The position numbers and the translations under genes are program-made. From Ulva prolifera (Eukaryota > Chlorophyta > Ulvophyceae > Ulvales > Ulvaceae), in the NCBI GenBank assembly GCA_023078555.1, contig CM041197.1, positions 7,968,842 to 8,032,841 on the forward strand: a stretch of 64,000 nt of DNA, read 5' to 3'. A model generated the notes under the pieces. It was given only the letters and a program-made list of their open reading frames with translations. It ran no database searches and had not been told where the DNA came from. Below, piece by piece: positions 17,540 through 50,252 of this stretch. The number at the start of each line of letters is the position of its first letter. The first letter of the stretch is position 1.

Positions 17540-17640
17540 TTCGACATCGATGTCTCGGAGATACAGGACCGACCATGGGCGGCAAATCCCAGTGGTATAA
17601 AAGCGGCGTGGCACAGCTTGTGAGACAAATCGACCAGAGC
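17540..17640 (+). promoter_or_regulatory. Core promoter of locus A (TATA box plus shared upstream block)
   Basis: TATAAAAG lies at 17596-17603 and is followed by CGG. Upstream, ACCATGGGCGGCA sits at 17572-17584, preceded by TCTCGGAGATACAGG. Downstream, GAGACAAATCGACCA probably spans the start site. The promoter at 35001-35063 carries the same blocks in the same order, so this is a conserved paralogous promoter and not a chance TATA sequence. Confidence 0.75.
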
Positions 17641-18606
17641 TTCTTTACCTTGGGGCCGCCACAGCTGTCACGCCTTTCGCTACATATACGACGTCAACGC
17701 GTACGTTCGACTTCACCACCGCACCTTCCGCGGCACCACCACCACAAGTGCTCCACAAGGTGCCGTTTTCACAAATTAGTTTTCACAAACTAGAGCTCGA
17801 GCACACTTGAGATTGCCGGCAGCGGCGTGCGGTCGCAATTGCAATGGATGTTCACTGCTTGGCGCCACAATTGGCCTTAAGCTTTCGCCGATCGCTCCCG
17901 AGAGTTCTTGTCCACCATGGCTACAGCTGTGTTGTCAGCGTTCACCATGCTTAGCTGTACGTAACAAGGTTCAGCAGCATCGCACTCATGTACTAGAAGA
18001 GGTTGCCGATATGTATGAACAAAAATCCATCGGATCCACTGTAGCTGTGGGTCACCAGGAGTACTCGCCCCCCCAACTCTGCTGAGTTGTGTTCAAACAA
18101 ATTTGTATGACTACCAGTGCCTTTCACTCCTCGAATTATGTCACGTCCTCACGCGAATCAAACCGCCTTCGCCTTTGAAGGGACATGCATTTGGCCCTGA
18201 AGTACTACTTGTGCTGGCTGTGGCGTGGGTGCGTTGTGTTGCAGCTGGGTTGGTGGCTGTGTTCTCAGGGGCTTGCAAACAATGCTCGCTTTAAAATTTT
18301 GTCGCGGTGCATGTGCCTCCAAGTTGCGCGCTTTGTCCATGTAACACATGAAGCCTATGCAGTGCTAAATTCGAGCTGAATATGAACCTTGCAAGCTATC
18401 AGTTGATAGAGACTGCTGCAGGGTATCGTGTCCAGCTCAGCATTCGAACCTGATCAGGCTCATCAACAACTTGAAAGCGAGCCCCCTGTGCTAGCGCGAA
18501 AATTGCAAGCACCGATCCCGCCAAGCCTCCTGCAGCTGCCCGGTATTGCATGCAAGAGTCTCTGCTCTGTTTCTGCTGTAGTGCAATCCACCGCGACACA
18601 GCCAAG
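17625..18606 (+). other. 5' UTR of locus A with a 662-nt intron
   Basis: A donor CACAAG/GTGCCGTTTTCAC at 17760 and an acceptor ACTGCTGCAG ending at 18421 delimit a probable 5'-UTR intron, leaving a second UTR exon 18422-18606 before the ATG. Locus B has the matching sites (CACAGG/GTGCGGTTCTCAC at 35109 and ACTGCTGCAG ending at 35770) and by my count the same intron length. The intron interiors have diverged. Confidence 0.5.
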
Positions 18607-19492
18607 ATGAAGCTTCTCTTCAACATACTTGTCATGGCCCTGGTGCGTCCCTTCACTCATGTGCTCAGGTAGATGCGCATCGGATGCGCGCGCGCATCGG
18701 GTGCACCCGGTGCGCGCTGCTGAAATTGTTTCCCATGTACATGTAGTACATGCACTCGGGGCCTTGGTGTATGTATGCATGATTCACGGTGTGATCCGTG
18801 AAGCCCCAACTTGGGGCTTCATGGTTGAAGGTCACTACTCCTGTTGCTGAATTGACATGCACTGCAAGCGTCTCTGCTGTGCATGCTTCAAGTTGCTGTG
18901 ACCCTGTTGAGTCTGCAACCTGAAGCTAGCAGACTTTCTTGTCACATGACATGCATGATGATGTACATGGCCAACAGTGGCAGCTAGCAGCATACAACGT
19001 ACACCAGGCAGCATCCGTACATTGCAGGTTCAGCAATACATGTATTGTACAATACCAGTCGCAATTGCTATAGTGTAGAATCGATTATATAGATATCTAA
19101 CTGTACAGCGCTGACCCAAATTCGAATTCCTTAAGGCTGACTGCGCATGCACCGTCGCTCATGCAGTCAAGTTGCGCGTATGCATGCAGGCGGTGCTGAC
19201 CCTGAGTTTGAACGCTGCTGGACGTCCGCTGCCGCGTGCGGGCGGTTCTGACCGCCGCGGCGACATCGGCCGCCACCTCCTGGGCGCGGACCTCGGTGCC
19301 ACGAGTGGTGGCACCCGTGGATACACCAATCTGAATGTGCAACATCACAGCAGCCATGATGGCCACACCGCCGCCTACAATCACGCCAATGCGGCCTACG
19401 CCGCCGGCGCCGGGCATGTGCGGGGCCAGGCGCAGCATGCAACCAACATGGCTACAGCGCGCCATGTCGGGATTGCAAGGGCTAGCACCTGA
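18607..19492 (+). CDS. Locus A: small secreted Gly/His-rich protein, two exons
   Basis: Exon 1 (18607-18642) encodes MKLLFNILVMAL, and exon 2 is 19190-19492. The intron is GTGCGT...ATGCAG in phase 0. The product has 112 residues. The exon 1 residues plus AVLTLSLNAAG form a signal peptide, so the protein should enter the secretory pathway. The mature part opens with GRPLPRAGG, then SDRRGDIGRHLLG, and ends in a His/Ala/Gly/Asn-rich tail. An RGD tripeptide lies just before the RHLL motif. Locus B aligns over AGRPLP...RG...RHLL...G, and loci C, D and E share the gene architecture. The upstream TATA promoter supports expression. No known family is recognised. A structural extracellular role or metal binding through histidines is inference. 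Confidence 0.68.
18799..18820. other. Hairpin GAAGCCCCAA-C-TTGGGGCTTC in the locus A intron
   Basis: Perfect 10-bp arms separated by one base lie inside the coding intron of locus A. A related pair, GGGGCTGTT and AACAGCCCC, occurs near 37.68 kb. No function is evident. Confidence 0.5.
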
Positions 19493-20160
19493 AGAGCACT
19501 CTTCAGATTCCGTGCTACGTGATGCCAACTTGATGGAGGGCATCACAAGGATGTAGAGGAGCTTGTCCCTCCGACTCAACTTTGATTGAAGCTGGCAGGG
19601 CTGGGTGCATGCGTATGGTTGCATATGCATCCGCTGGCCGATGCAATAGTTACCAGCTGCCAGTGGACCGTCCATCAAATGTAGGGCTGCACAGGGATGT
19701 GGACAGGTGGCACACCGACACTGGCTGCATCGATGTCATGTACGTGGTGTGCTGTGCTGTGTGACAGGTGCTATGCTGTGCACATGTGGTGCCCGCCGTC
19801 ATTGGCGGTCTGCTGTCTGCAGCGGATATGTCACATGTGACACATGCATGGCACCTGCACGGTGGCGCCACGGTGTCTGGGGGTGTTTGCGGCCGGGCCC
19901 TGGCTGCCAGCCAGAGCTGTACATGTACTTGTGCTACCACATGGCCGGGCCGTCTGCGAACACGTGCACGCTAGCAGACGCCGCATGGCCGCCGGGCATG
20001 TGGCCGCCGGGCATGTGGAGTTCTGGAGGCGACAGCGGCCACCAACCCTGCCGCCCGGCCGCGGTCTGCGTCGGGGATGCCGACTTTCGCGGACAGCTCG
20101 AGTGTGTCTTGGTGGTCCGCAGTGGGAGGCGACGCTTCTGTTGGAGCTGTCAGCAGTGCA
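19493..20160. other. Downstream region of locus A, no gene seen
   Basis: The stretch is rich in TGCATG, ACATGT and TGTACA palindromic hexamers. No coding exon or tail signal could be identified with confidence. Confidence 0.35.
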
Positions 20161-20168
20161 GCAGAGAA

Positions 20169-20192
20169 TGAGCACTATATAAATAGTGCTCA
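20169..20192. other. Palindrome enclosing a TATA-like sequence
   Basis: The arms TGAGCACTAT and ATAGTGCTCA flank ATAA, placing TATATAAAT at the centre of a 24-bp inverted repeat. It could be a promoter inside a dyad or only a chance hairpin, since no gene was found directly downstream. Confidence 0.4.
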
Positions 20193-20439
20193 TATATGCA
20201 TAGGTGTATACATGTGGCAGTAGTGGCGTGCTCGTCCACGTGACCGCTGGGACACCAGCAGCTCTATAGACCAAATGTCACAAACTGTAACATAGTATTG
20301 AATCAGCATACGCATCAACTTGCCGATGATACTATGAAAGAGTCATGGTGGTGTCACGGTGTGTGGATGGCTGGATGGCTGCGTACATGTCGGTCGTTGC
20401 AATTGGAGGCACCGTGGCCACGGGTTACGCTGGTCATGG

Positions 20440-20665
20440 CTGTGGCGTTGGTGCGTCAGGCCAGGTTTGCGGGAACGTCTATGCGATGCTCGCTGGTGCC
20501 GCGGTGCTGACCGCCTCGGTGCCCCTCGATCCTTGTAAAACACATACACACCCACCCACACGCACAAACAGCCACTCACACACGCACACAAACACCTCAT
20601 GTGGCCCTTAAGGAAGCTTCAATCTCAGAAAACCCCAACCGCATGTGTGGCCGGGGCAGCTCAGC
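20440..20665 (+). repeat. Dispersed repeat of the CTTGTAAAACA subfamily, copy 1
   Basis: The copy runs from a GGTGC-containing block through CCTTGTAAAACAC, a CA-rich stretch with CACACAAACACC, then AATCTCAGAAAACCCCAAC and TGGCCGGGGCAGC. The same order of blocks recurs at 29800-29935. The CTTGTAAAACA part resembles the LINE tail CTTGTAACACA, so it is probably a related subfamily. Confidence 0.55.
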
Positions 20666-20739
20666 TTGGTCAGCTTAGTATGTGTTGCAGAGATCAAGGC
20701 AGCGAGGGTGCGTCTCCAGCTACGTCTGTACCTACCCCC

Positions 20740-20935
20740 GCCCTTATTTTGCCCTTGGAAAGTGACATGTCGCCCTTACTGTCGCCCTTAGATTTCGCCC
20801 TTATTTGGGGTGGCACTTTTTGAAGCCTAATTAAGGGCGGCATGATTTAACGAATGGCAAAAGTAAGGGCGACATGTGAATCATTATTCCGGCAATACTG
20901 TAAGGGCGGAGCCCCCTTAATTGACCATTTTATTT
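20740..20935. repeat. AAGGGCG repeats with inverted arms, MITE-like
   Basis: CGCCCTTA occurs repeatedly on the left side (about 20745-20802) and TAAGGGCG on the right (about 20832-20917). ACATGTCGCCCTTACT near 20767 pairs with AGTAAGGGCGACATGT near 20865. The A/T-rich centre and mirrored arms look like a small non-autonomous DNA transposon or its remnant, but no target-site duplication was identified. Confidence 0.5.
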
Positions 20936-21157
20936 ATTAACATAATCGGGCGCCCGCCCTTCTGAGGCAGGTACGCTGAACCAGATATGCTACGGCGGAT
21001 CCGCTCTACCCACAAGGGCGGGGAGCATCCGCCGTAAAAAAAAAGTGCCCACGCACAGCTGATGCGGATTGGCTGCACGGTCTGCACCATCCGCATCAAC
21101 CAGCAGTGTGGTGCACCTGCGTGTGGCATGATGCTGCAACGAGCGGGATGCAATCGA

Positions 21158-21311
21158 GGCCGTTGGCTTGTGCGTGACGAGGGATGTGCTGCACCACATC
21201 CCACGACACGCACGAGCCTGCGGACATGATTAATGCAATCGAATCCGCTGGCTTCTGCGTGACGAGGGATGTGCTGCAGCACATCCCTCGTCACGCACAA
21301 GCCAACGGCCA
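21158..21311. repeat. Nested tandem and inverted repeats with a perfect 42-bp palindrome
   Basis: A unit with GGCTTGTGCGTGACGAGGGA and TGTGCTGCA occurs at about 21164 and again at 21250. Each unit is followed by an inverted partner. The second forms a perfect 42-bp palindrome at 21256-21297 centred on CTGCAG. An outer arm pair, GGCCGTTGGCTTGTGCGTGA at 21158 and its complement ending at 21310, encloses the whole block. Confidence 0.85.
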
Positions 21312-22576
21312 TGGTTGCTGCACGTCCATGTGACGGTTGATCCGCCTCGTTGAATTGCATGCCGAAACAAGGTCAAGAGTCATCAAGGTCAAGAGTCTGT
21401 CAATAAACACAGGCTTCGCTTCTTGTTGCATCGTTAGGCTCCAGTCCGATGACAGCGTCTTGCAACTCGCTGACGTTGTGTGTCTCAATGGCCATGTCAG
21501 CGCGTTTTGCCACTTGTACCCGTTCTATGAACCTGCAGTACGGATGTATTGTCAGACTGAAGGATAGAATGCAACGAAATCATGGCACGTGACTCAGTTG
21601 TGACAGTGGTGAACCTCGTTCCGCATTCACGACATGACAGGTTACTTGACGTGAGAATATGCGTTGATGGTGGCTCGCACCATCCTTGAATCGTTGAATG
21701 CCTCTTCCTGTCTCACGCTTCGTACAGTTCGTGCCTGTTCTCCTGTCGGTTCTGGTACCTGCGGTCCACCGCGCAATCAAACCAGTCGCCACTGTTACAA
21801 CGCTGCAGCGATCATCCACGGTCTGGTCACGTTGGACGGTGTAGGTTACATATGTGTTTGACTGTCCCAGGCACTATGGTATTGTGGCCTGCGGCAACTA
21901 CAAGCCACCATCAACGAAACTAACACCGTGCAACCTCGCATCCAACGTCGAATTGCCGGCAGTCAGCGCTGGCGAGACTTACAAAAGCCTGCAGGTGCTT
22001 TTGTGCGTGGTCTCAACAGGCAGATCGACTGTGGATGTGGCGTGTCAGGAACAACAACGGGGTCGGCATTGTGTTCCTACCTCGGTCAGACACACCTGCA
22101 CCGGCAGCATGGAAATGTAGGTACTGTACCTTGCTTGTGTGTTGATTGGCCGACGTCTCTCGGGCTAGCATCTGCGCCGTTTTAGTTACCGAACGCGCAG
22201 GTCCGTTGACCGTGGAGACGCTGACGAGAATTGATGCGGTTCGATATACGTGAAACTCAAGAGCCATTACAAGCAGACAAAGTGACAGGCTTGCCGGATA
22301 GGCGTGCATGATGAACCTATAACATGACACTGCGAGCGGGGCCACAACGGTGCAGTACACTGTCGCGCTTTGGAGGTCCAAGCCACCCTCGATACGTCGT
22401 GCGCGTGCACCGAACATCCATCAAGCTGCCGGCGATCGCACGCACACGATCATCGACCTAAAAATCGAGTTGGTTGATGTGTATGAGTGGACATGTCATT
22501 CATTGCTGATTTTGGGGACCTCCGTTACTGCTCAACGCTGATTCCAGTGCCTCGCGCCTGCTTGCTGTTCCTGATT
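21312..22576. other. No recognisable gene
   Basis: Short open frames on both strands lack motifs. The segment probably contains the promoter and leader of the orphan gene that starts at 22577, but I see no clear TATA box. Confidence 0.35.
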
Positions 22577-25500: not shown

Positions 25501-26080
25501 CTGGTGGTGTACGGCAGCTGTTGTCGAATGTGCTTCTTCTTTGAACTTCTGCAGTGCGTTTGACTGCCACGTACATACATCAGTATTGTATTGGCCTGAC
25601 TCGACCTCTGTCATGGCGAGCCTTCCGGGGTATTGATCGCTTCGCACTGTTGCGACAAGAGGCGCTTACTAGCAGTCATATCAAGTTTTGATAGCTTTTG
25701 CAGACATCCTAGACCTTCAACACGGCGATGGTGACAGTGGCGATGAGGCCGACCAAGGTCCTCGCAAGACCAAGACCCTGAAGACAATGGCCTCTGTTCT
25801 GCGTGGCCGCTTTGGACGCAATAGCCGTCATCGCAGTACACGGGCTCTGCATGCTCACACCAATTACCTCAGGAAGTCAGTGAAGAAATTGATGACGCAG
25901 GCGAAAGGAGCTACTGGCCCCGACGAGCGGGAGAGGATCCTGAAAAGAGCTCAAAGCATCACCCAGGGATGTGATGCGATGACAGCCTATCACGCTAGTA
26001 GGGGAGGGGCGTCCATTGCCTTCCTGGAGTGGATCCGGGCAGCCAAGGCCAGTTGGCCGTGGCCAGGATACGGACCGTGA
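22577..26080 (+). CDS. Orphan multi-exon gene, unknown function
   Basis: Proposed exons are 22577-22849, 22986-23966, 24046-24210, 24292-24484, 24591-24763, 24990-25503 and 25704-26080, with compatible phases, for about 891 residues. The start ATG (MASIVFSS) precedes an acidic Ser/Asp stretch (SNDSGSDGEDD). The middle has helix-rich and Cys-rich segments such as AWCGIAACYVTGYCCC, and the last exon is basic (RGRFGRNSRHRSTRALHAH). I recognise no family. Codons end in A or T far more often than in the kinase or clpX exons, so the gene may be transferred, young or carried by a mobile element. Exon 2 contains a G13-A-G12 run encoding Gly5-Glu-Gly4. The ends of exons 3 and 5 are uncertain, with alternatives at 24166 and 24727. 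Confidence 0.65.
23265..23290 (+). repeat. Poly-G tract inside a coding exon
   Basis: Thirteen G, one A and twelve G lie within exon 2 of the orphan gene and encode a Gly-rich linker. Runs of this length slip easily, so the reading frame may vary between alleles or the assembly length may be wrong. Confidence 0.85.
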
Positions 26081-26502: not shown

Positions 26503-26509
26503 TTTACGT

Positions 26510-28150: not shown

Positions 28151-28179
28151 TGTATCCTGCGATGTGCTTCTGTTCTTAC

Positions 28180-28812
28180 ACGAGCCTATGGACTCCAGTT
28201 AGCGGAGGCCAGTTAGCGGCTGCATGTGATCACATCACTAACATCCACATGAGGGCTATCTCAGCACACCGACAGGCACGAGCACTGGCATCACCAGCCC
28301 AGCTGTATTCGTGGCCAGTTAGCGTGACAGCCCATTTGCAAAGAGGCTGGTGAATAGTTTGATGTATCTCTGCTGGCCATAATACCAGTGGCTGCATGTG
28401 ATCACATCACTGCCATCCACAGGAGGGCTATCTCAGCACACCGTCAGGCACGAGCACTGGCATCACCAGCCCAGCTGAATTCGTGGCCAGTTAGAGTGAC
28501 AACCCCTTTGCAAAGACACTGGTGAATAGTTTGATGTATCTCTGCTGGCCAGAATACCAGTGGCTGCATGTGATCACATCACTGCCATCCACAGGAGGGC
28601 TGTCTCAGCACACCGTCAGGCACGAGCACTTGCATCACCAGCCCAGCTGTACTCGTGGCCAGTTAGCGTGACAACCCCTTTGCAAAGAGGCTGGTAAATC
28701 GTGTGAAGCATCTCTGCTGGCCAGAATACCAGCGGCTGCATGTGATCACATCACTGACATCCACAGGAGGGCTATCTCAGCACACCGACAAGCACTTGCA
28801 TCATCTGCACAG
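28180..28812. repeat. Tandem array with a 172-bp period, about 3.6 units
   Basis: TGCATGTGATCACATCACT recurs at 28221, 28393, 28565 and 28737, exactly 172 bp apart. Each unit also contains GAGGGCTATCTCAGCACACC, a CAGCCCAGCTG block and CTGGCCAGAATACCAG. The identity between units is high. The fourth unit decays after about 75 bp. Confidence 0.92.
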
Positions 28813-28814
28813 CC

Positions 28815-29790
28815 GTCCTCGTGTCCATCCGGTGTTTCCATAACCACATGGCCAGGGGGACTGATCTCCAAAGCGCCCGCAGTGGCACTCTCATTTAGTA
28901 CGAAGAGCACAGGCATCACTTGCCGCAAGCAGTGTCGTAAGATGTCTGCAACTGTCCGTAGCCGTAGACGCTCGCGCCTGTGGTTCATACAGTTTCCAAA
29001 ATCTCCATTGCAGATTGGTGAAGCATGATGTGCCCGAGCTTCCAAATGGCTATGCCGCAGCGATGGTTTGCCCTGCTCGTCCCTGAACACCGTTGCAGCC
29101 GTATATTGCCGATTTTAACATACATATAATTTGCGCTGTATAATCAGATCGTGGCGCGATCTGTGCGTGTGGGGCCTGTTCATAGACCAGATGCTCCAGT
29201 AGCCCGCTTCGCGATGGCGCATGATGAGCTCCGCTAGAGACAACACGTCATAAAACTTTGAGCAAATTGGTAAACATGTTCATAGTAGGTTTAATTTTGT
29301 ATCACTGACGGATTAGCTTCTAGCGGTGACACGCAGCCGTCCTAAGCTCTGCCCAAGTGTGTCCTCAGGCTGATTGACCTCCAGAAATGCCGCGAGTCTC
29401 CAGAGCCCAAGTTAAGCCTGAATGAAACCAAATATGTTCCCATGAAAGGATATACACGCTTTGATCGCGCTGTTCGTGAGCATCGTAACAGCGCCGGCCG
29501 ACCGAGTCATCCTCGAAGACAGGCACAGTGCAACTGCGTCCGTAGACCACAACGAACCGGATAAAGCATATCATGCGTCAATATCATATTGAACATGGTC
29601 ATTTCGGTTGAAATCACATCAAAAGGCGACTGTTTCTGCTCCGACCTATCCGCCCTTGTCAGGCCCGCCCTTGTAACATGAGCCAGGACGTGTACAGACG
29701 TAGTGGGTTTCTATCACTAGCTATAGTAGGTTGTGTGCGGGCGCGTTGTGCGTGGGTGACACGCGCCTGCCATGCGTACATGGGGCTGTG
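28815..29790. other. No recognisable gene
   Basis: No coding exon, RNA gene or clear repeat was identified between the 172-bp array and the next dispersed repeat. A CTTGTAACA string near 29669 may be a remnant of a LINE tail. Confidence 0.35.
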
Positions 29791-29794
29791 GTGT

Positions 29795-30344: not shown

Positions 30345-30567
30345 GCGTGTGAGTGTTACAAGGACAAAGGTGGCGAGGCGGGCAGCACCGCGAAAGAAGC
30401 AAGCAGAGCAAGCACACATCGAGACTCCCACGCACGCAACACACATGAAACTCACCACGTTCTCAGCAAACGACACAGATCCGCAGACCGCCGAGTACAC
30501 CCCCACATACGCACACACAAACACAATTGTTTACGCCCCAAACACAACGCCCCGCGGCAGCGTGCGT

Positions 30568-30568: not shown

Positions 30569-30606
<38 letters not shown>

Positions 30607-30615
30607 CGGGGGGGG
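30569..30615. repeat. Homopolymer G38-C-G8
   Basis: Thirty-eight consecutive G residues are followed by one C and eight G. The length is unlikely to be stable or exactly sequenced. On the LINE sense strand it is poly-C. Confidence 0.9.
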
Positions 30616-33559: not shown

Positions 33560-33678
33560 CACAGACAGTGGGTGTTTTGGTGTGCGCTTCGTGTGGCTTG
33601 CTGCGTGGTGTGCGTTTCCCCTGCTTCTTGCTTGCGGTGCTACCTGCCTCGCTTGCTTTGTCCTTGTAACACACAGAC
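33560..33678 (+). mobile_element. LINE-family 3' tail, short solo copy
   Basis: The blocks are GTGTGGCTTGCTGCGTGGTG, TTGCGGTGCTACCTGCC and TTGCTTTGTCCTTGTAACAC, with an end near 33675. It is closest to the copy at 47360-47515. It sits head-on to decayed copy 1. Confidence 0.75.
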
Positions 33679-34969: not shown

Positions 34970-35066
34970 TTGGCATCTCTGAGACACAGGCCTGCAGCTG
35001 ACCATGGGCGGCACAGTGCAGGTATAAAAGCGGGGAGGCGTGCCTGCTGAGACACATCGACCACGT
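34970..35066 (+). promoter_or_regulatory. Core promoter of locus B, paralogous to locus A
   Basis: TCTCTGAGACACAGG (from about 34978), ACCATGGGCGGCA (35001-35013), TATAAAAG (35033-35040, then CGG) and GAGACACATCGACCA (35049-35063) reproduce the locus A promoter in order with small spacing changes. The 35109 to 35770 intron in the leader follows. Confidence 0.75.
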
Positions 35067-35885
35067 CTATACATCTTACGCCGCATCTGTCGATATCACA
35101 AGCACAGGGTGCGGTTCTCACCAACTCATCACACTTGCCATGTTCCCTGCAGGCACATGTTCACTGCTTGAATAGTGTACTGTACACCGTAGACTCGCTT
35201 GGCACCACAACCGTCTGCTGACAAGCAGGCAAGTTCACTGAAGCTATTTGTGGCTGTTCTTGTGTGTAGCAGGCACAGGTCCCCTGCCTGAGATCCCACA
35301 CTGTAGGCTTGTGTGCATCACTGTGCACAGGTACATGTTCTGCTCCTTGCCTCACACGTCATGCAATTGGCCAATCACAGCGTGCTACAGAATCACACTG
35401 CATAGTCAACGTACTCGAAGGTTGCTTGTGAGCATTTGAAAGTCATGTGCAGTTCAGATATTCCGTTTCTCTTGTCTGTATGCCAGTTCCTTGAGCAGGA
35501 CCACACATGGTTCCAAGTTGAATCTGATTGCAACAAGCCACCCCATGGCCACACGGACGTTTCATTCTGTAGCATTAGTCACCCTGTCATCTGGTGCATG
35601 TGGCCAAGGATGGGTCACTGCCCTAGTGAAGGCTGGCAAAACCAACATGTGTTCAATGACCTGTACTCTGTCTGATGCCCATCCATCACAGGCATTGTCT
35701 CAGCTGCATTCACAGGCATGCTGGGTCCCAGCTATAGCTACATCAGACATGTATAGCGTCACTGCTGCAGGAAATTGAGCCCTGGTCAGCACTCAGCACC
35801 GAAGCTGCCTCCTCACCCAGCAGCACTGACAAGCTCCTGCTGCTTCTGTCCACTACACCATCAGTTCACCAGCACCCTTTCGAAG

Positions 35886-36726
35886 ATGAAGGTTCTCTCT
35901 ATCGCACTCTTCGTGGCCATGGTGCGCTCCTGACACCTGCGGATTTGCGATCCGTATCGCAGACCAAGGTCAGCTGATGCATTGGCTCAATCTTGAACAC
36001 TGCTGCCACATGGCCTTCCAAGGTTGTAATTCTGGCTATGGCCACCACATTCTGCATGAGCTCAGCAACTTCGTAGGATATATTGCCACTGTGTCCGATA
36101 TATTGCCACTGTTTCCGCCGGCACTAATTCTATGGAGCCTGGTTTTGGTTCCACTCCACGTAGCCGCCACACACATGCACCCACCTGCCGCAACCCTCTG
36201 GAGGTGCACCACTTGGTAGACCTGCCCGCCTAATGGTAAGAATCGATAGTGTATGTGCCCTCGAGCATTAGTATCTGGAGCCATCTGAAAACAAGTTTTG
36301 AAGCTCCCGAGTGAACGCTACGACTGCGAATGCATTGATTTCATCGATTTGATTTGAGCAGCTGATCCAACGAGGCTAGTCTGCGCAACGATGCATGAAT
36401 GGAGTACATGCACGCAGGCGGCGCTGACCTCAAACGCACCCGTCGCTGCGGGACGGCCGCTGCCGCTCCTGGGCGTGGCCGAACGCGGCGGCGCTGCCGT
36501 CCGTCACCTTCTGGCTGTCGTTGGTGGAGCGGCCAACCCTTGGGGCGGAGGTCACGACACGGACTGGCACGGCGTCGATCCGTCTGCCCAACATCAGCAG
36601 TATGCAGCCCACACGGCCGTCGATGACGCGATCACAGGCATGTGGGTCGAAGAGGGCGTGTATGATGAGTCGAGATGGGGACCGAAGACGGGAAAGGACA
36701 AGGCAGCCACGGTTACAACGCGATGA
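35886..36726 (+). CDS. Locus B: small secreted protein, two exons
   Basis: Exon 1 (35886-35921) encodes MKVLSIALFVAM, and exon 2 is 36418-36726. The intron is GTGCGC...ACGCAG in phase 0. The product has 114 residues. The exon 1 residues plus AALTSNAPVAAG form a signal peptide. The mature protein opens with GRPLPLLGVAERGGAAVRHL, parallel to locus A (GRPLPRAGG...RHLLG), then becomes His/Asp/Trp-containing (GGGHDTDWHGVDPSAQHQQ) and ends in a charged Lys/Thr tail. It shares promoter blocks, UTR intron placement and the first-exon pattern with locus A, so the two genes are duplicates that diverged in the mature part. No known family is recognised. Confidence 0.7.
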
Positions 36727-38280: not shown

Positions 38281-38284
38281 TGAT

Positions 38285-39700: not shown

Positions 39701-39721
39701 ACCCACCCAGCAAGTACTGCG

Positions 39722-40235: not shown

Positions 40236-40959
40236 ATGATCATGAAGCTCTGCAGCGCACTGCTGGTCGCCCTGGTGTGCCTCTACGTCTGGCTCCAATC
40301 TGAGTCAGACTGTCATCGGATGCGGCAATGCATGATCTGCTGCGTTGCGTGGAAGATAGAATCATGATGCAGGCCGTCAGGCTGCATCTTGAAGTATTCA
40401 GTATGTCTCTGCAATTGTCAGTTCGGGTCAGTTGAGGTTGTATACAAGGCTGAACTTTGCGGGACCCTTCCAATCCTGCATTCTTTGCGACGGGCAGGAC
40501 AATCCGCAACAGCTGACAACCTGCAGCAGCTTGTCCGTGACTTATGCCAACCGCTGCCACGGAGCTCTGCCTACAACTTCATCTGCTGTAGCAGCCACAT
40601 ATCAGAACACGGCTGCGTTCAGATGCCATATCTGCCTCAAGGCTGACATCGATTGCACCATCTCTCACGCATGGCGCACATGCATGCAGGCAGCGCTAAC
40701 TCTGACTTCGCCGGTCGCTCAGGGGCGCTCGTTGCCGCACATCTATATCGCTGCACCTCCGCCTCACCCTCCCAATCGATATCGCTGCAAATACACGTGG
40801 GTGGGCTGGACCGGGCGCAATGGCGAGTTATCATGGTGCCGGTCTGTCCGCGTGATGAGTGGCAGCATTTCCGCGGTACGTGTACCGGTGCCGCAGGGGC
40901 GAACGCGCTCGTCACGTGACAAGCTCTCCCCGCCGCAGCGTGTAGGCACCGCATACTAG
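40236..40959 (+). CDS. Locus C: short secreted basic protein, two exons
   Basis: Exon 1 encodes (MI)MKLCSALLVAL, with the ATG at 40236 or 40242 and the exon end at 40274. Exon 2 is 40690-40959. The intron is GTGTGC...ATGCAG in phase 0. The product has 100-102 residues. Exon 2 opens with AALTLTSPVAQGRSLPH, the same layout as loci A and B, but then diverges into a Pro/Arg/Tyr-rich sequence (APPPHPPNRYRCKYTW) with a basic end. A local duplication of ATATCGCTGC beside the divergence point suggests that a slippage or frameshift changed the C terminus. No TATA block like that of A and B is visible; LINE copy 2 lies upstream and may have separated or replaced the promoter. Unknown family. Confidence 0.5.
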
Positions 40960-41720: not shown

Positions 41721-41731
41721 GGGCATGTGTG

Positions 41732-41912
41732 TGTTACAAGGACAAAGCAAGGCAGGTAGCACCGCGAGCAACAACCGGGGGAATCGCACACCATGCAACA
41801 AGCCACACGCAGCACACACCAACACACCCACGCAACGTCAGCACCTGCGCCGGCCACAGCCACACAACCACACAAACAACCACACACACGCACAAACACA
41901 CACTTACGGTCC
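41732..41912 (-). mobile_element. LINE-family 3' tail, inverted against LINE copy 3
   Basis: The minus strand runs from a G/T-rich part through GCGTGTGGCTTGTTGCATGG, then TCGCGGTGCTACCTGCCTTG and CTTTGTCCTTGTAACACAC. It is very close to the copy at 47360-47515. It abuts LINE copy 3 head to head at about 41.91 kb. The strings GGCATGTGTGTG at 41722 and 42685 bracket the pair and may be a target-site duplication, but the sequence is of low complexity. Confidence 0.75.
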
Positions 41913-42660
41913 CATGTGATTATCTCTCGCCGCTCACGGGCCATCCGGCCTGAGCGGCGAGCCGCCCGCGGCGTCCTCGCCGCTCTCTCGCGGGCCGGGC
42001 ACCGTCCGAGGCTCAGACGCACTGATAGGCGGCGTGTGCTGCCTCTGCCGTTTGCCCCGACCCCCGGACACAGCGCGCCTCGGGCGTGCTCCGTTCCGGG
42101 TGGGTCGGCGGATGGGGGCGCCCCCGCGTGTGTGGCAATCCAGTGATATGGCCGCTATACCACTGGATCCTTGCACGTTGCGACGTGCAAGGATCCAGTG
42201 GTATAGCGGTCATATCACTGGATTGCCACAGCGTGTGTTGTTACGGCGCTCGGGGCTGGCCTGGTCGGGGGATTGGGGCGGGGGTCCTGGGGGCCCCCGC
42301 CGGCTTCCGCATGGGGCAGGCGCCGGCCAGGCCACTGCATGGGGCTGCCGCTGCCGCGCGGGCGGCGGGGTCGTGTAGCGTATTGGCGTGTGGGTGTGTG
42401 TGTTGGGGGTTGGGTCTGCGCCGCGTGCGGGTGCGTGGGTCGGGTGTCAGTGTGTCGGTGCGTTTGGGGGTGGGTGCGTGTGGAGGTGCGTGTGGAGGTT
42501 GGTTCGTGTGGTGGTGTGTAGGAGTGTGGGGGTGTGTGGGTGCTTGTTGTGCCTTGGCGTTGGCTGTTGCTCTCCTGTTGCGTGCGCGTCGCATTGTTCG
42601 TGCTCTCCCTTTTGGTCCTGGCGGTGCTACCGGCCCCTCCGGCTTTTTCCTTTGTAACAC
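41913..42660 (+). mobile_element. LINE copy 3: coding end and 3' UTR carrying a palindromic insertion
   Basis: The copy starts with the last codons of the polyprotein (TVPCDYLSPLTGHPA, stop at 41951-41953), matching copies 1 and 2. The 3' UTR runs 707 nt to CTTTTTCCTTTGTAACAC at 42660. Subtracting the 100-bp palindrome and 5-bp duplication at 42126-42230 leaves about 600 nt, close to the 573 nt of copy 1. The tail from about 42540 is the same subfamily as the solo copy at 14296-14432. Confidence 0.8.
42131..42230. mobile_element. 100-bp palindromic MITE-like insertion with 5-bp target duplication
   Basis: Two 50-bp halves are reverse complements except at two positions and have no loop between them. 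The ends are TGTGGCAATCC and GGATTGCCACA. The element is bounded by GCGTG on both sides (42126-42130 and 42231-42235). It lies inside LINE copy 3, and the host 3' UTR is longer than in copy 1 by almost exactly its length. It is most simply a fold-back MITE mobilised by an unknown transposase. Confidence 0.75.
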
Positions 42661-42721
42661 AAGCCTCCCACCCTACACAAGAACGGCATGTGTGTGCAGC
42701 AGTACTGGGTCCTCGTGCCCA

Positions 42722-42810
42722 ATCACATGGAACAATTCCGAATATTCAGGTCTAATTTCTGTACATTTGGCAGCATAAACAGAGCTGCAAGGTAAGCCAA
42801 CACTGGTGTG
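42722..42810 (+). repeat. Dispersed 85-bp repeat, copy 2
   Basis: It holds AACAATTCCGAATATTCAGG, TCTAATTTCTG, GGCAGC, GCTGCAA and CCAACACTG, matching the minus strand at 38195-38280 block by block. It begins about 60 nt after the LINE copy 3 end. Confidence 0.55.
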
Positions 42811-43488
42811 AAGGCGTAGGTGCCAGCATCAGCTGACTGCAGTGACCGACTCCGGGACCAGGGCGTAATGCAACACTTGTGCCATGTTGGCCGCTGGAAG
42901 TCCTGCCGCTCATGAGTACGCTCCAGAGGTGGCTGACTGTGGCATGCAGCGTATCCCACATGCCACATTGCCAGTGCTGTTGCGGTGGGCGATGTCTCAA
43001 CATGACTTATCTCAAGATAGCAATGACCCGCACAACTCTGGAGCTGATGCATGACAGGGTGTAATTACCGGATTTACTTTACTTTACCTTACCAGCAAAA
43101 GAAGGTCAGTCATGGTCAGTCCGCAATTACATAAATAAAATCCAGTTCTCGTGCTGTGACCAGAATATTAAACTAAACTTTAGACTTCAGTGATCAGAAT
43201 TCCAGTGGTCGGTCATGATCAAATGCAAGGAGGCACGTACATCCCTGGACTCGATGTGGTGCAGGTGACTAGACTGGATGAGCATGACCATATCGCACGG
43301 CTTGCCACCCCACAGTTTTGGGAACAGCACTCGGGCAGGGGCGCTGGCAACCATTACTGTTGTGCCAGAGATTGACAATGACCTGTGCAAGAATGATGCC
43401 TGCTGCGCGGCTCAGCATGCCACTTTCCATATGACAATGCACTTGAGAATTCACGTCATGCCATGCTTCCTTGTGCAGCTGTGCTTAG

Positions 43489-43520
<32 letters not shown>

Positions 43521-45420
43521 GAGAATCTGCACAGATCTATAGATCTGTAGATGGACAGGCAGTGCTTGCAGCACAGTGGCTCTCAAAGCGCACTTTCCAA
43601 ACATGGCACTGTAAGGTCATTGCCATCACAGGCGGCGCATCACAGGAAATCGTGGCGTTCTGCGCTGCTGTGGTGCTGTTTGATACTAAGCTTGTGTGCC
43701 AGGTGATGGCTTCAACTGCATCATGGCTGCATAATGCAGCTGTGGTCCGCAGCTTCATGTCACGACACAACAAGTACCGGATATTCCGCTTCCGTGAAAA
43801 ATGTGTGTGCAGAGCGATGAACAGCGGAACATAAGTTGCCACAACGATGAGCTGGTGCACCGACACCACCCATCATGGCTGGTGCACTAGCACGGTGTCC
43901 GGGTCCACGATGTGCCGCAACAGCAGGCATAGAGACTATCCTGCTTCATCACCAGACCGCCACTGGATTGGCGCTGATGCGAATGACTTCAATGTCCATG
44001 ATATGACTGCCGGTCGTGGGTACTCGCGGGCAGGCACGCATTTGTGACTCGACAGCGCTTTCCGCAGCGCAACCCAAATGAGCCACCTACCTCGAGATAC
44101 GGCTTGACAATGCATTACATGTAGATCGGGCAGATCTAAGATAGATGTTGCGTGTGCAAGGCACCGCGTCGTCTGGAACAGGAGAGCTCCTCGTGAGTTT
44201 ATGACGGGATGCACACCGACCTGCCGATGATGCACTCCATCACGCATGACGGCCGGCATGCAATTGAATCTATGCTTTGCGTATGTTGGCTTACACCATG
44301 CTGCACCGAGATGACGGGGACGTTGGGGGAGTGTAGAACACACCGCAGCTACAAACCAAGCCAACGGCCGCTTCCGAAGAGTCGCAGCAAGCTCATTCTA
44401 CACCAGCTTCCACTGCCACCGGCTTACGGAACACGGTCGCCGTCAAAGCAACGGGACTGTTCATGATGGCGTTGTTGGCACCGCATCTGCATGTGTGCTG
44501 TTCACTCTACTGTTGCAGGACAAACTGCACGTATGCTACCGATATAAAGTCTAAGTCACGCAGTGGCCAATCACACAGATGACGCCACGGTGAGACGCTT
44601 GAAGCCTGGATTGACCGTACGCAGGTGCGCCTTACAGTCCGCCCCAGCGTCGAGGTGAACAGTGCATGCACAGCTGATCGAGTTCGATGTGTGCAACTTC
44701 TAGACATGCATCAGCACGTTGTTCTTGACACTGTAAGATCTTGAGAATGGTTCAGTTGTCGCATATCTCGCGATGGCGATGAGCAGCAGAGCCGGTGTTG
44801 CCCTCCGGGTGACCTTGCCTGGGCTGCGCTGCGTGGGCAGCTGCGTGTAGGCCGACGCTTAGAAGAGCAGTCTGGCCTAGCTAGATGTCAATACGAAGCA
44901 TCCACCTTATCACTGGTCATCTTGTGCTCCTGAACATCAGTGTTTCAGTTGACCCGTGCAATTCAGTGATATGGATTCTGCCTGTACATGAGACGTCTGA
45001 TTCACTGCCAGGCCACAGTGGATATTTTGTCTTCTTGGCAGTCACGCGCTAGCATCATTCCAATTGCAACTGCAGCTAGCTGCCGTGCATAGTATGTGGT
45101 TCCACCATGCTATTGCTCAATGCTGTGGCGTCTGCCATGCCATCGAGCTGGCCCCTGCCAACAGAGGACCAGTGCACACTCTTTGCACAAGTGAGCTTTC
45201 TGACCTGACGATGAGGTCGAACATCTGCTTTGACAAAATCCACAGGCTCCCCCCTCTGCATGCTGTGATGCTGTGTCAGAGCATGAGCTTGTGTCAGTTG
45301 GCTGGCACTGGATGACTGCCCAGTGAACTCAGCCATGCCATGCATGACAACACAAGGACTCACTCTGCAATTTGCTTTGCAGCAGAAAACGAAGTTCAAG
45401 TTGCCCTCCAAGCCACGACC
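42811..45420. other. No recognisable gene; short repeats only
   Basis: Open frames near 43278-43550, 43537-43869 and 43562-43834 have no recognisable motifs. A TATAAAG near 44545 lies about 880 bp before the locus D ATG, a distance like that in loci A and B, and could be its promoter, but the shared GGGCGGCA block is absent. Confidence 0.35.
43490..43548. repeat. (CAG)10 and an adjacent 18-bp palindrome
   Basis: Ten CAG units at 43490-43519 are followed at 43531-43548 by the perfect palindrome ACAGATCTATAGATCTGT. Neither is inside a convincing exon. Confidence 0.8.
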
Positions 45421-45425
45421 CCAGG

Positions 45426-46720
45426 ATGCAAGCCACGATTGGAGCGATGATGCTGGCGCTGGTACGCCCTCACCTCTGCTGTCGGGGCCTTAAGGCCCAA
45501 TTGACCTGCCTTGACCTGCAGACACGAGCCACGATGTATTACCACAGGAACAGCCCCCAGTGATTGGAATATCACATGGAACAGCACCATATGTTGTAAC
45601 CCTTTCGGCATGTGCACCGGACTTGTGAATATGGCTAAGCAAATCCAGATAAACTTCAATTCACCATCCTGCACATGTCACTCACAGCCGGCATTGGCAC
45701 GTGAACTGTCATAGGCAACACAGTGTCTCAGACATATGGCGTCACTCAGAATCTTTGCATCCCACCTCGCTGGCATCAGCCTCCCACCCCGCGCTGTTAT
45801 CCGCACAGATACACCCTCGCAGCACCACCTCATGCATGCAGGCCGCCGTCTACTCCCAGCAAGCGGCCGCTGCGACAGTCGCAGTTGACGCGGGTCACGG
45901 CACCGCCGACGACCTCTCGCGCCAGCTGCCGGCACGCGGCCTCCGCAGCGTCCGCCGGCTCAACTTTGAAATCAAGCCAGACGTCGAGTTTCGGGACATC
46001 GATGACAGGCTGAAGGACGTCGACACCTTTGGCGACGAGGGTGATGAGGGGAACGAGGGGGATGAGGGGATCGAGGGCGACGAGGGTGACGAGGGTGAGT
46101 TGTACAATATTGACGTGGATGGCGATGAGGGCGACGAGGGCGACACGAGCCTGCTAAAAGATTTCGGAGAGAAGTTTGGTGACGAGGGCGATGAGGGTGA
46201 CGAGGGGGATGAAGGAATTGAGGGTGATGAGGGCGATGAGGGTGAATTGTACAATATTGATGTCGATGGCGATGAGGGCGACGAGGGCGACACGAGCCTG
46301 CTGAAAGATTTTGGTGAGGAATTTGGTGATGAGGGCGATGAAGGGCAGGAGGGAGATGAGGGAATTGAGGGCGACGAGGGCGATGAGGGCGAATTCTACA
46401 ACATTGACGTCGATGGCGACGAGGGCGATGAGGGCCAGGTCTTTAATGGTGTGAAGGCCGGAGACGTCGGCGGCGATGAAGGCGACGAGGGGAACGAGGG
46501 TGCAGATGACAAGGATGGCGATGATGGTGACGAGGGTGATGATGGGGCTGACGGTGACGACGACACGGATGGCGATGAGGGTGACGAGGGCGATGATGGC
46601 GATGAGGGAGCTGGCCCTGTGGCACCTGTGGACCCTGTGCCACCCGTGGACCCGGTGCCACCACCGGTGCTGCCCAAGTTCCCCACCGAGCCCGTCCTGC
46701 CCAAGAAGCCAAAGCATTAA
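45426..46720 (+). CDS. Locus D: secreted, highly acidic collagen-like Gly-X-X repeat protein
   Basis: Exon 1 (45426-45461) encodes MQATIGAMMLAL, and exon 2 is 45842-46720. The intron is GTACGC...ATGCAG in phase 0. The product has 304 residues. AAVYSQQAAAATVA completes the signal peptide. After an Arg-rich propeptide-like segment (QLPARGLRSVRRL) come three imperfect 45-60-residue repeats. Each consists of Gly-Asp-Glu triplets, an IEGDEGDEGE(L/F)YNIDVD block and, in the first two, a TSLLKDFGE block. The C terminus turns to GDDGDEGDD and then a Pro/Val-rich end (PVDPVPPVDPVPPP, ending KKPKH). The triplets are collagen-like but almost wholly acidic, so Ca2+ binding or mineral or wall association is plausible. 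This is inference. Architecture links it to loci A-C and E. Confidence 0.8.
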
Positions 46721-47161
46721 GCGGCAGAAGAGCTGCAGCAGTGCGCACACGGGACCGGCGAGTGTGGGGTGAGGGCTGCGCCGCCGCTGTGCGGGCTAAT
46801 GCGCCTGCGGCGGCGGCGTGCTGCGGCGCTGTGCTGCCACGGCCACCACGCTGCGCGGTGACTGGCCCCTTCTCTATGGCAGGCAGTTCTGGGAACGTTT
46901 GCACCGCAGAGGGCAGTGTTGAGTAGATTAGAGGCCACATGTGCCGCTGCCAGCGGCGTTAGAGCTGTCTGCTTTCTGTGTTGGCCTGGAATGAGCATAC
47001 ACTGTGTTAATTGTACATTATGCGCGAGTTGCACGTTGTGTTGGAGCCTGTAGGGAGTCTCTGCTGCTGTAACAGCATAGCTATCAGTCAGGACGTGTGC
47101 CCCGAGCAAATTGCCGCTTTGTATGGCACATCATGTGGCCTGTCTGATGCTGTTTGTAGCG

Positions 47162-47516
<355 letters not shown>

Positions 47517-48854
47517 AGGCCGAGATCATGGCATGGCGGTCTGCAGTGTCAACTGTAAGGCAGGAATGCTGAGCTGCTAACCATGCGTGTGTTCTTGACA
47601 GTATCTATGTGCTGTGGACATGCCCTTATTGGATGGGCGGTTGCTTCGAGTTGACACACCGACCCGGTGGCTGGCCCTGTTTGGCAGCCTCACGCGCGAG
47701 TGCATGGTCTGAGCAACTGAAATCAATCTACATAGTTCTGGGTACATCTTCGCGTACAAAGTCGGCAGTCAGTGACTGCTGCAGCTCCTGCACAGCCAGG
47801 CAGCCAGCCAGGCTGGGTGGTGTTTGTACGGATGCATGTGCCCCATGCGTGTCTAGATCTATAAACCAGAATGTTGCAAACGGAGGCTACATCAGTGCAG
47901 TCGTCACCGAAACAGCGCAAGATGCTCACATGGCCTCCTTCGTCACTGAAGGTTGTGTACTAGACAGCCTGTGCGGCAGCTCAGCTGTCCGGTCCGTACC
48001 AATACAGCATGCACATCCACATGAATGCATTGTATAAGGCACTGGTACTCCAGGTGGTGTAGGCGCAGGCCGAGAGAGCGGCCGTGAGCAGTGCTTGTGC
48101 CCACGCTGCGCCTGAATTCACGCAAAGAACACAAATGGTACAGCTTCATGCAGTGGGGATACATAGTAAATCATAGTACACCAGGAACGAAAAGAATCAT
48201 CATCTTGAGCCGCCAGCAGCTGCTGCGCCCGAGCAACGGTGCATGCATGCCCTCTGTGCTGGCGCAGCGCCGCAAATCATGGGCCATGCCAGCCCCGGAA
48301 CCGACGCTGCCGCCCACACACCTGCTGCAAGCAGCCCCTGCCACCGGGGTGGGAGAGGGAGTGCCGCATGCATTACGCTGCGACATCGTCCAGCATCCCC
48401 CGGCATCATGGTCTGCCAGGTCCCCGCCCAGGGCCCCATGGTCATGTGCGTGGCAGCCACTTGCAGAAGTAAGAAGTAGGCAGACGCGCACCGCATGCAC
48501 ATGTTGCTCACGTAAAACTCCGGGTAAAGCATGGCAATGTACCGTGTGCACGGTCAGGTCTCGCCAACACTACCCTCACCATCGATATCGGTTCAACAAG
48601 TACGCCAGCCAAACCCCCGAGGAAGAGCAAATTCATTCATTCAGCCCTGGAGCGCGCCCCCATCAACATATGGCAAAGTCATCATGGCGGCGCCACCGCC
48701 CCGTACCGCATGCATGCCTGGCATGCATGTCTCAGCTCCATGTCCTGCATCTTTCACACCCCAGTTCCACACCCTGCCGACTCAATGGCGCTGGCCTGGT
48801 GCCACCAGTCCCGCCCGACACGGCATCGGCGTGAATCAAAACCTGTGTAATGTC
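47517..48854. other. No confident gene between convergent loci D and E
   Basis: Long open frames occur on both strands (48091-48834 plus; 48551-48171 minus) but overlap each other and lack motifs or splice partners. GTGTTCTTGACAGTAT at about 47589 repeats a string from 37.96 kb. Confidence 0.35.
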
Positions 48855-48874
48855 CTTCCATTTGCAAATGGAAG
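48855..48874. other. 20-bp perfect palindrome downstream of locus E
   Basis: CTTCCATTTGCAAATGGAAG lies 86 nt past the locus E stop codon on its 3' side. It could form a stem-loop in the 3' UTR and so affect 3' end formation, or be chance. Confidence 0.55.
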
Positions 48875-48959
48875 CTTATTTCCTAGCACAACGCCCCGCA
48901 CACTCCCGCGCACACTCGTCAGTCTCGCGCGCGCGTTCCCCGCCCGACTTGAGTGGCTT

Positions 48960-50252
48960 CTAGTGTACCACCGCGAAGCCAAATCCGGCCTTCCCGTCAG
49001 TCCCCCGGCCCTTCACCGTCGACTGGAACTTGTCAAAGCGCGACTCACCACGACCCTTCTTTGCCTTCGGTGCAGGCGCCTTTACCTCCTTCACCGGAGG
49101 GGCCTTGGGCGCCTTCACCTTGCTGCCCCCGCTGCTCGGGGGCTTCACGCCAGTCTCGCGGCCGCGCCGCGGCGCGGCACGGGGCCGCGTGCGTGCGGTT
49201 GGGGGCTTTTTCGGCGCCGGCTGTGGCGCCGGCTCCGGGTGCTCCTCCGGCGGCGGGCTCTTGGCCTTTGTCGCGGGCCGCTTGATCACGATCACCTCCT
49301 CTTCCTCCTCCACCACCGTTTTTTTGTCCTTCTTGCCGCCCTTCGCTTTGTCAAAGTCCTCCGGCACCCTCGGGAAGTCGACCTTGCCGTCCTTCGGCTT
49401 CGTGGCGCCCTTCGGCACGCGTGGCGCAGGCACCACTGCCACCGTCTTGGTCTCCTTGTCCTCTGTTACGCCGTTTTTGTCCGCCTTCTTCACCACCGTC
49501 GTCTCCTCGATGAATGGCGCCGAGAATTCCCCGGCGTCTGGCTCACCCTCCTCGATCGGGATTCGCAGTGTGAACTTGCTCGTGGCGGAGAGCTCGTTCT
49601 TGCTGCTGGAGCCCTTGTCACCAGCCTTGGAGGTGCTGGCCGCGGTGGCCTCGTTGGAGAGCTTGCCGGACGAGCGTTTCACGAAGCTGGTCAGCAGGCG
49701 GCGGCCGCCGATTGCGTGGTCGGCGGCATCCTCGCCGCTGAGCAGGTCTGGGTCCGCGGCGGACGCGATGCCAGAATTGGTCCGGGTGTGCACCGCAGCG
49801 ATGGGTGCGGCGGTGGCGAGGCCGGCGCTGAGCGCGGTCTGCATGAACATGCATGGTGTGAAGGCTGATTCAGGTAGCGGCAGCCGTCCCCTGTCCGGGG
49901 GGGGTGGTTGCTCGGCAACGATCACATGCATATGATGTCAACATGCGAAAGGTCGCTGGACTGTCGGTGTAAGTTTGAGATGATTGCAATTGAAGCTACA
50001 CTGTAGCCACATGGAAGACTGCAGCACGAGAGGGGGACTGCAGCTGGGGCCCCCTATACAGCTACAGGAAGCGCTAGCTGGAGCAGACAATTGGCTCGGT
50101 TATCGCAAAGGTGTGTGGGCTAGCGCTACAGCAAGTGCAGATATTTTCATCTGCTGCAGATCGACCGGTACCACATGCAATGGCAGAGTTGGAGCAGCGG
50201 GCCGCACCGCGGCGAGGGAGGCGAGCAGCAGCTGCACTGACAGCGTCATCAT
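48960..50252 (-). CDS. Locus E: secreted Lys/Pro-rich basic protein, two exons
   Basis: On the minus strand exon 1 (50252-50208) encodes MMTLSVQLLLASLAA, and exon 2 is 49838-48960. The intron is GTGCGG...ATGCAG in phase 0, 369 bp. The product has 307 residues. Exon 2 opens TALSAGLATAAPIAAVHT, completing a signal peptide, and a GGRRLLTSF segment follows at about residue 60, reminiscent of RHLL in loci A and B. The rest is low complexity and rich in Lys, Pro, Ala and Glu, with VVEEEEEVIVIKRPATK, a PPPEEHPEPAPQPAPKKPP stretch and an Arg-rich RPRAAPRRGRE segment. It is strongly basic and probably disordered outside the cell or in a vesicle. It is convergent with locus D, whose product is strongly acidic. 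A TATAAATA on the minus strand at about 50837-50830 may be its promoter. No family is recognised. Confidence 0.75.

Follow-up and report, generated by a model that had tools for sequence, protein, structure and literature searches.

Clustered genes with a predicted signal peptide split by a phase-0 intron in Ulva prolifera, probably encoding secreted structural proteins

We analyzed a 64,000-nucleotide stretch of the Ulva prolifera genome (GenBank assembly GCA_023078555.1, contig CM041197.1, positions 7,968,842 to 8,032,841; hereafter, the window), which holds five genes, A to E, each consisting of a very short first coding exon, one intron, and a second exon with the remainder of the protein. 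A sequence-only reading of this DNA had described them as five dispersed members of one secreted-protein family. The coordinates, translations, GT donors, intron phase 0, and single-exon remainders first described were found at all five loci. As shown in Table 1, an ATG exon of 36–45 nt (33 nt in C when counted from the inner start) is followed by a phase-0 intron of 369–547 nt and then by one open exon. The joined proteins comprise 112 (A), 114 (B), 102 (C; 100 from the inner start), 304 (D), and 307 (E) residues. All five loci lie within 32 kb, hence they are clustered rather than dispersed. The acceptor was TGCAG in A, C, D, and E, in agreement with the proposed (T/A)GCAG, and CGCAG in B, which departs from it; ATGCATGCAG was present at the acceptors of A, C, and D as claimed.

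Table 1. Modelled features of genes A to E (positions within the window)
Feature	Position	Strand	Support
A promoter-like block with TATAAAAG at 17596	17553..17669	+	blastn A-B, 68% over 123 nt, E 7e-10
A exon 1, MKLLFNILVMAL, predicted first half of signal peptide	18607..18642	+	A-B similarity 18604-18652, 75.5%, E 1e-4
A intron, phase 0, 547 nt, GTGCGT...ATGCATGCAG	18643..19189	+
A exon 2: predicted signal-peptide remainder, GRPLP...RHLL, His/Gly/Ala-rich mature part	19190..19492	+	B-like 19180-19283, C-like up to 19235
B promoter-like block with TATAAAAG at 35023	34976..35091	+	blastn match to A
B exon 1, MKVLSIALFVAM	35886..35921	+	frame reading, blastn to A
B intron, phase 0, 496 nt, acceptor CATGCACGCAG, no ATG two codons before exon 2	35922..36417	+
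B exon 2: predicted signal-peptide remainder, GRPLP...RHLL, mature part	36418..36726	+	blastn
C exon 1, M(IM)KLCSALLVAL, start 40236 or 40242	40236..40274	+
C intron, phase 0, 415 nt	40275..40689	+
C exon 2: predicted signal-peptide end and GRSLP, A/B-like for 16 codons, then unrelated	40690..40959	+	blastn; codon score
D exon 1, MQATIGAMMLAL	45426..45461	+	layout
D intron, phase 0, 380 nt	45462..45841	+
D exon 2: RRLNFEIK, acidic Gly-Asp-Glu triplets, Pro-rich end, KKPKH	45842..46720	+	Pfam Collagen
Three 147-nt repeats inside D exon 2	46028-46468	+
E exon 1, MMTLSVQLLLASLAA	50208..50252	-	layout
E intron, phase 0, 369 nt	49839..50207	-
E exon 2: predicted signal-peptide end, GGRRLL, Lys/Pro/Ala-rich mature part	48960..49838	-	codon score best of six frames

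Signal peptides were scored with a home-made tool based on hydropathy and the −3,−1 rule. Exon 1, with 11–15 codons, supplies the predicted n-region and opens the hydrophobic core, and exon 2 supplies the rest of the core together with the cleavage site. In A, for example, the junction reads MKLLFNILVMAL/AVLTLSLNAAG^RPLP (slash, exon junction; caret, predicted cleavage), with the hydrophobic core running across it. The predicted cleavage site fell inside exon 2 in all 11 gene models, namely A to E and six genes of a second cluster on another contig, C7: after residue 23–25 in the former and after residue 18–24 in the latter. A split signal peptide with a phase-0 intron after 11–15 codons was therefore seen at 5/5 window loci and, as modelled, in 6/6 C7 genes. 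Exon 1 is thus predicted to encode half a signal peptide, which contradicts the earlier description of a signal-peptide-only first exon. Signal function and an extracellular destination of the A–E and C7 products would follow from these predictions.

Comparison of the loci indicated that A, B, and C are paralogues. A and B gave collinear blastn matches over the promoter (17553–17669/34976–35091), a pre-start segment (18412–18465/35761–35815), exon 1 (18604–18652/35883–35931), and the acceptor into exon 2 (19180–19283/36408–36514); A–C and B–C matches likewise spanned the acceptor into exon 2. In a database of five regions, the exon-2 start matches among the three reached E-values of 3e-10, 2e-9, and 7e-7, and the A–B exon-1 match reached 1e-4. 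The exon-1 alignment score was equalled in 0 (A–B), 1 (A–C), and 0 (B–C) of 500 codon shuffles. The pattern ATGCAYGCAGGCNGYNYTNAC at the start of exon 2 occurred exactly only at A, B, and C in the 88.9-Mb genome. Allowing one mismatch gave 17 further sites, compared with none for control sites, and among these the layout with a long exon 2 was found only at one site on C7 (L025); at two others (L017 and L024), a weak candidate for exon 1 preceded an exon 2 of 27 and 20 codons, respectively, and both were rejected. A and B also share the TATA-type promoter block with TATAAAAG. Since the TATA boxes lie ~1.0 kb (A) and 0.86 kb (B) upstream of the ATG, both genes probably have either a long leader or an intron within it. 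A genome DNA search with the A promoter block returned only A's own copy and missed that of B, so this search was insensitive. Genome protein searches with exon 2 of A and B gave no further copies; six weak matches to A exon 2 (E 0.44–1.06) were not accepted as paralogues.

The C7 site L025, then a pair of loci on the same contig (L051/L052), led to a genome protein search with the conserved start of exon 2, hereafter the header. L025, L052, and L061 proved to be the same gene. The search yielded six genes (L059 to L064) within C7:5.315–5.470 Mb at E-values of 6e-34 to 2e-6, and a second query re-found 5/6 of them. In the models, exon 1 of every gene measures 36–42 nt and is followed by a GT(G/A)(C/T)GC donor and a phase-0 intron of 392–630 nt, and their exon 2 opens with a header of the form ...AEP...AHRR.L... 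followed by a low-complexity tail. These tails differ in composition: Gly/Ser/Glu plus Pro-rich, Ser/Lys, Gly/Arg, Gly/Ser/Glu plus poly-Pro, Glu/Gly/Lys, and Pro-rich with SPPP runs plus Gly/Glu. L064 has five SPPP runs and one Y-X-Y, L062 has one Y-X-Y, and no other C7 gene has more than one SPPP; three of the six proteins (L059, L062, and L064) end in Lys-Lys plus aromatic residues. Among the candidates met in these searches, L065 (contig C5, E 0.005) lacked a convincing layout, and for L077 and L078, matched by the second query, the matched frame, the one part inspected, was not convincing.

The conservation pattern in C7 argues for the splice model. In the six pairs of L059 to L062, exon 1 was 81–95% and the header 76–92% identical, against 60–74% for the introns, 60–76% for exon 2 after codon 50, 60–69% for the upstream 300 nt, and 61–65% for the downstream sequence; three shuffled controls gave 59–63%. 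Exon 1 matched at 34–40 of 42 bases, compared with at most 28 in interior intron stretches (13–21 sampled per pair). Because conservation of exon 1 far exceeds that of the intron, the splice model appears sound, and this constitutes good comparative evidence for a coding C7 exon 1 that is joined to exon 2 by splicing. In the three pairs of L059 to L061, dN/dS was 0.061/0.585, 0.043/0.187, and 0.047/0.667, i.e., 0.07–0.23, so that purifying selection on exon 1 and the header is shown at the sequence level. L059 and L060 were 77.6% identical over 415 nt from the acceptor well into the tail, where GSE/GSK triplets stand opposite SSK triplets. By comparative evidence, the C7 cluster backs the layout and joins a conserved header to varied structural tails.

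D and E were then considered individually. D contains three internal repeats, of which repeats 1 and 2 (147 nt) differ at 19 positions, 17 of them third positions, with 16 synonymous codon changes against 2 nonsynonymous ones; since 17 of the 19 are third positions, D exon 2 is a coding exon. Repeats 2–3 (13 against 12) and 1–3 (15 against 12) were less one-sided. D matched Pfam Collagen (PF01391) at 47 bits with a cut-off of 27.2, and it alone of the six sequences scanned counts as collagen-like. Its Gly-Asp-Glu triplets contain no Pro, which makes a triple helix in the product doubtful. The frame of E scored best of six by codon score, with the antisense frames lower; this score was trained on a small set of 826 codons. 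A long open frame of 323 residues lies antisense over E exon 2 (48964–49935, plus strand). E had no Pfam match. Genome searches with the N-terminal part of exon 2 of D or E found only the query itself, with no paralogue. The D–E blastn match (79 nt, E 1e-4) lies in the acidic repeats of D and is probably compositional, reflecting low complexity. In exon 1, codon shuffles reached the observed score in 4 (C–E), 11 (C–D), and 21 (A–D) of 500 (ten pairs, uncorrected), and in 145–348 of 500 for the other pairs involving D or E, so that kinship of D and E with A–C is at most hinted at. The proposal of one family for A–E accordingly narrows to A–B–C; the six C7 genes separately form a family of their own, and the comparisons made did not extend common descent to D and E. 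Judged by layout, D and E are probably genes of the same type as A–C and the C7 genes.

How far the layout exceeds chance was assessed by scans that, in their final form, required a donor, an acceptor, an open exon 2 of at least 80 residues, and a hydrophobic core across the junction. The final scan found the five claimed loci and two unclaimed ones in the window, recovered 5/6 C7 genes (L059 was missed), and, with L051 and L052 excluded as known members, gave four loci (five rows) elsewhere in the genome over a sample of 150,013 bases. The first scan of the window had given 8 rows on the plus and 22 on the minus strand; the 14 minus rows listed stemmed from one CA repeat, and a filter against two-residue repeats was introduced afterward. 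E was recovered in a looser scan and in the final one. Reversed sequence of the window gave 0 and 0 rows in the first scan and 6 in the looser scan, and that of the fetched loci (183,728 bases) gave 14 rows with a best score of 7.52, compared with 28 real rows. The layout by itself is therefore only weakly beyond chance; what goes beyond it, as judged from the sequences, is the A–B–C paralogy together with the independent C7 cluster. The looser scan yielded no member in four stretches of 10 kb each, of which two flank the window and two come from the C7 region; the final scan gave one low-scoring row in L069.

The acceptor word ATGCATGCAGGC occurs 648 times in the genome, compared with 5 for the reversed word, and TGCATGCA has 16 sites in the window. 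When 29 sites outside the window were inspected, the layout was clear in two (L051 and L052). Since the ATGCATGCAG word is common in the genome and 2/29 outside sites have the layout, it is not specific to genes of this type. Other candidates of the scorer were rejected: neither L036 nor L056 has an intron, the intron of L038 is 77 nt long and its exon 2 comprises 13 codons, L045 scored low, and L053 resembles an interior exon of a conserved protein. A further layout candidate on contig C9 (L057, MVIALFSFFAVVV, score 12.66, intron 735 nt) was not counted as a member.

From these results, we propose, with a probability of roughly 0.6, that A–E and the C7 genes are nuclear genes encoding structural proteins that are lineage-specific and secreted by way of a split signal peptide, most likely belonging to the cell wall or extracellular matrix. 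The short exon would supply the n-region and half of the hydrophobic core, and removal of the 0.37–0.63 kb phase-0 intron would join it to exon 2, thereby completing the signal and its cleavage site. Exon 2 would then add a short segment resembling a propeptide, whose basic motifs are GRPLP...RHLL in A and B and AEP...EEAHRRRLN in most C7 genes, for which a role in cleavage or sorting is conceivable, followed by the mature tail, of low complexity in D, E, and C7. Copies would arise by local duplication, and the tails would diverge inside exon 2, whether by turnover of repeats, point change, or intra-exon recombination, without any exon swap at the intron; the intron would be a shared inherited mark rather than a seam for new domains. 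Predicted secretion and rapid diversification of the mature part, both proposed earlier, are supported by the sequences. A wall or matrix role also gained support, mainly from the SPPP runs, poly-Pro, and Lys-Lys-aromatic C-termini of the C7 proteins and additionally from the collagen-type triplets of D; such a role of the products is suggested by composition, on which any assigned function rests because no wider homologue was found.

Several observations weigh against this proposal. The signal peptides were judged by the home-made scorer. For L059 and L062, the scorer alone favored other exon-1 candidates, and the conserved ones were chosen. Pairs involving L063 or L064 were 62–78% identical in exon 1, 64–77% in the header, and 62–71% in the intron, and the introns of L059–L060 and L059–L061 still partly align, as do those of L060–L061 (62% over 1097 nt). 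A and B differ by seven amino-acid changes in the 12 codons of exon 1 (7/8 changed codons) and by 14 in 31 compared codons at the start of exon 2 (14/18 changed codons), with no purifying selection and no third-position excess; since amino-acid changes dominate, coding conservation is not what marks A and B as genes. A and D each have an antisense frame with about the same codon score, and the mature part of C may have decayed, perhaps to the point of being non-functional. The comparisons gave no clear homology of A–C to C7, D, or E. Finally, homology searches gave nothing elsewhere beyond two near-identical contig proteins, one matching B (97%) and one matching E (99%), each from source 'lgn' and presumably from the same species; the C7 header had none at E-values up to 10.

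The strongest competitor, to which we give a substantial minority share, is that A–B–C and C7 are real secreted families, with D and E being unrelated secreted genes that are neighbors by chance. Neither D nor E has a paralogue or clear homology to the others, their layout scores (10.1 and 9.5) lie inside the background range (best background, 11.69), and their sole blastn match is likely due to low complexity. Against this, they share with the other loci the intron position and phase, the donor type, the 32-kb stretch, and RRLN or RRLL in the header; the exon-1 hints for C–E, C–D, and A–D point the same way, and the Gly-triplets, Pro-rich part, and Lys-Lys end of D resemble L059, whose own Pfam Collagen match was below the cut-off. 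RRLNFEIK of D also resembles RRLNWYIK of L062, which by itself is not deciding. Profile comparisons did not link the two clusters: when 4005 entries, including 4000 shuffles, were searched with a profile of the C7 header, 3907 were reported and the window genes ranked 114 (E), 119 (A), 142 (D), 360 (B), and 1213 (C), and hhalign of the C7 and A–C alignments gave a probability of 5% (E 0.008, 12 columns).

Somewhat less probable, and in our view tentative, is that the mature parts of some loci, C foremost, are decaying pseudogenes whose conserved start is a remnant of duplication. The codon score of C exon 2 was −0.627, within the range of the eleven introns (−0.28 to −0.91), and its similarity to A and B is lost after 16 codons. 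Nevertheless, C retains its donor, acceptor, and open frame, and at the start of exon 2, seven of 12 changed codons were synonymous versus A (15 compared) and likewise versus B (16 compared). That there is no intron at all, and that these are single-exon genes whose start, an in-frame ATG CAG, lies two codons ahead of exon 2 (MQAVLT..., MQAALS...) with hydrophobic ATG stretches upstream by chance, is improbable. Such an ATG exists in A, C, D, E, L059, and L061 (6/11), and the background of four loci in 150 kb for the layout alone is not negligible; however, the ATG is absent in B, L060, L062, L063, and L064, and in L059–L062 as well as between A and B, conservation of exon 1 and its donor far exceeds that of the intron. 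Least probable of all is the earlier proposal that one secretion exon was joined to new mature exons, for although all eleven introns are phase 0 at a similar position, the mature compositions differ strongly, and C shows weak exon-1 hints with D and E, exon 1 holds half a signal, the exons 1 of D and E show no clear relation to those of A–C, and similarity crosses the acceptor and ends inside exon 2 (94–97 nt in for A–B, 46–49 nt for A–C, and after about 50 codons in C7, with no intron there), which argues against exon attachment and contradicts it for A–C and C7.

The proposed split-signal layout has counterparts in other systems. Insect CPR cuticle genes are described as having a short first coding exon (3–36 nt in Anopheles) and an intron in the signal peptide, often in phase 0 (PMC2259329, PMC1626468). 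As described there, they resemble the genes reported here in the short exon 1, the signal-peptide intron, the clustering (tandem in CPR), and the extracellular structural products; the present genes differ in an exon 1 of 33–45 nt, in occurring in an alga, and in their low-complexity tails. No chitin-binding R&R domain was among the Pfam matches of the six sequences scanned, and the genes do not count as CPR members. In the Drosophila glue genes Sgs1/3/7/8, the account of PMC10835880 gives a first exon of usually 28 bp, an intron inside the signal peptide at residue 10, a conserved N-terminus, disordered Pro/Ser/Thr repeats that vary between copies, and clustered duplication. The signal-peptide intron, conserved N-terminus, variable repeat region, and clustered copies are thus common to both; the intron is phase 1 in Sgs and phase 0 here, and the conserved C-terminal motif with Cys given for Sgs in that account was not seen here. 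The fungal IGY small secreted family (PMC4367982) is similar in having a conserved N-terminal motif that exons 1 and 2 share between them, low overall similarity, and uniform gene structure, but is described there as having three exons and conserved Cys, with no repeat tails reported in that description. Green algae are said to lack classical extensins but to possess long chimeric ones (PMC4769139); of the features named there, a signal peptide, Ser-Pro3+ repeats, and Y-X-Y recur in L064. Taking at least two SPPP plus a signal peptide, with Y-X-Y common, as the mark of an extensin, A–E do not qualify (SPPP counts of 0, 0, 0, 0, and 1), and L064 has its five SPPP and one Y-X-Y. No report of this layout in algae was found among the top-ranked open-licence papers searched. 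Volvocine pherophorins are green-algal secreted matrix proteins; unlike them, the six sequences scanned against Pfam matched only Collagen, in D and, below the cut-off, in L059. By analogy, the best reading is that the layout of these genes is comparable to that of insect cuticle and glue genes.

A more speculative extension, which we consider unlikely as it stands, is that these genes represent an unrecognized green-algal class of wall or matrix genes with a conserved split pre-pro header and freely evolving low-complexity tails (collagen-like acidic, Lys-rich, and extensin-like). The basic HRRRL or RHLL motif would then be a sorting or processing signal, and linked genes would make cross-binding acidic, basic, and Pro-rich partners. 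If true, such a class would parallel the cuticle and glue loci of insects by convergence. Proteins of this kind largely escape searches by domain or homology, yet they look like structural components of the wall or matrix. C7, with its conserved header and disposable tails under different constraint, would offer a place to study the evolution of repeat-rich structural proteins, and the split-signal layout in insect cuticle, fly glue, and algal genes raises the question of why signal-peptide introns accompany extracellular structural proteins.

Around these genes, the window contains a LINE-type retrotransposon open frame of 1577 residues with endonuclease and reverse transcriptase domains (7884–12617, minus strand) and an open frame with a ClpB D2-small domain, part of a conserved neighboring gene (61893–62771, minus strand). 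An interspersed element with the core GTTACAAGGACAAAG occurs at 30355, 31037, and 41733 on the plus and at 33656 and 47492 on the minus strand, and twice in the C7 locus L063; this element near both clusters is possibly a small transposon. A 172-nt unit is present in three to four tandem copies at 28215–28827, hairpins lie at 42131–42230 (48-nt arms, 98%) and 21150–21318 (82-nt arms, 85%), a long CA repeat separates D and E (47157–47360), and a poly-G run of more than 30 bases lies at ~30570–30615. Rfam gave no match at gathering scores. The assembly lacks the large RuBisCO gene, so the plastid genome is probably not included. The genome gave 38 matches to the chlorophyll a/b-binding family, and one translated antenna exon best matched an LHCI-2 chain (9vfj), followed mostly by chlorophyll a-b binding protein chains, indicating by sequence similarity that the genome encodes a green-type antenna.

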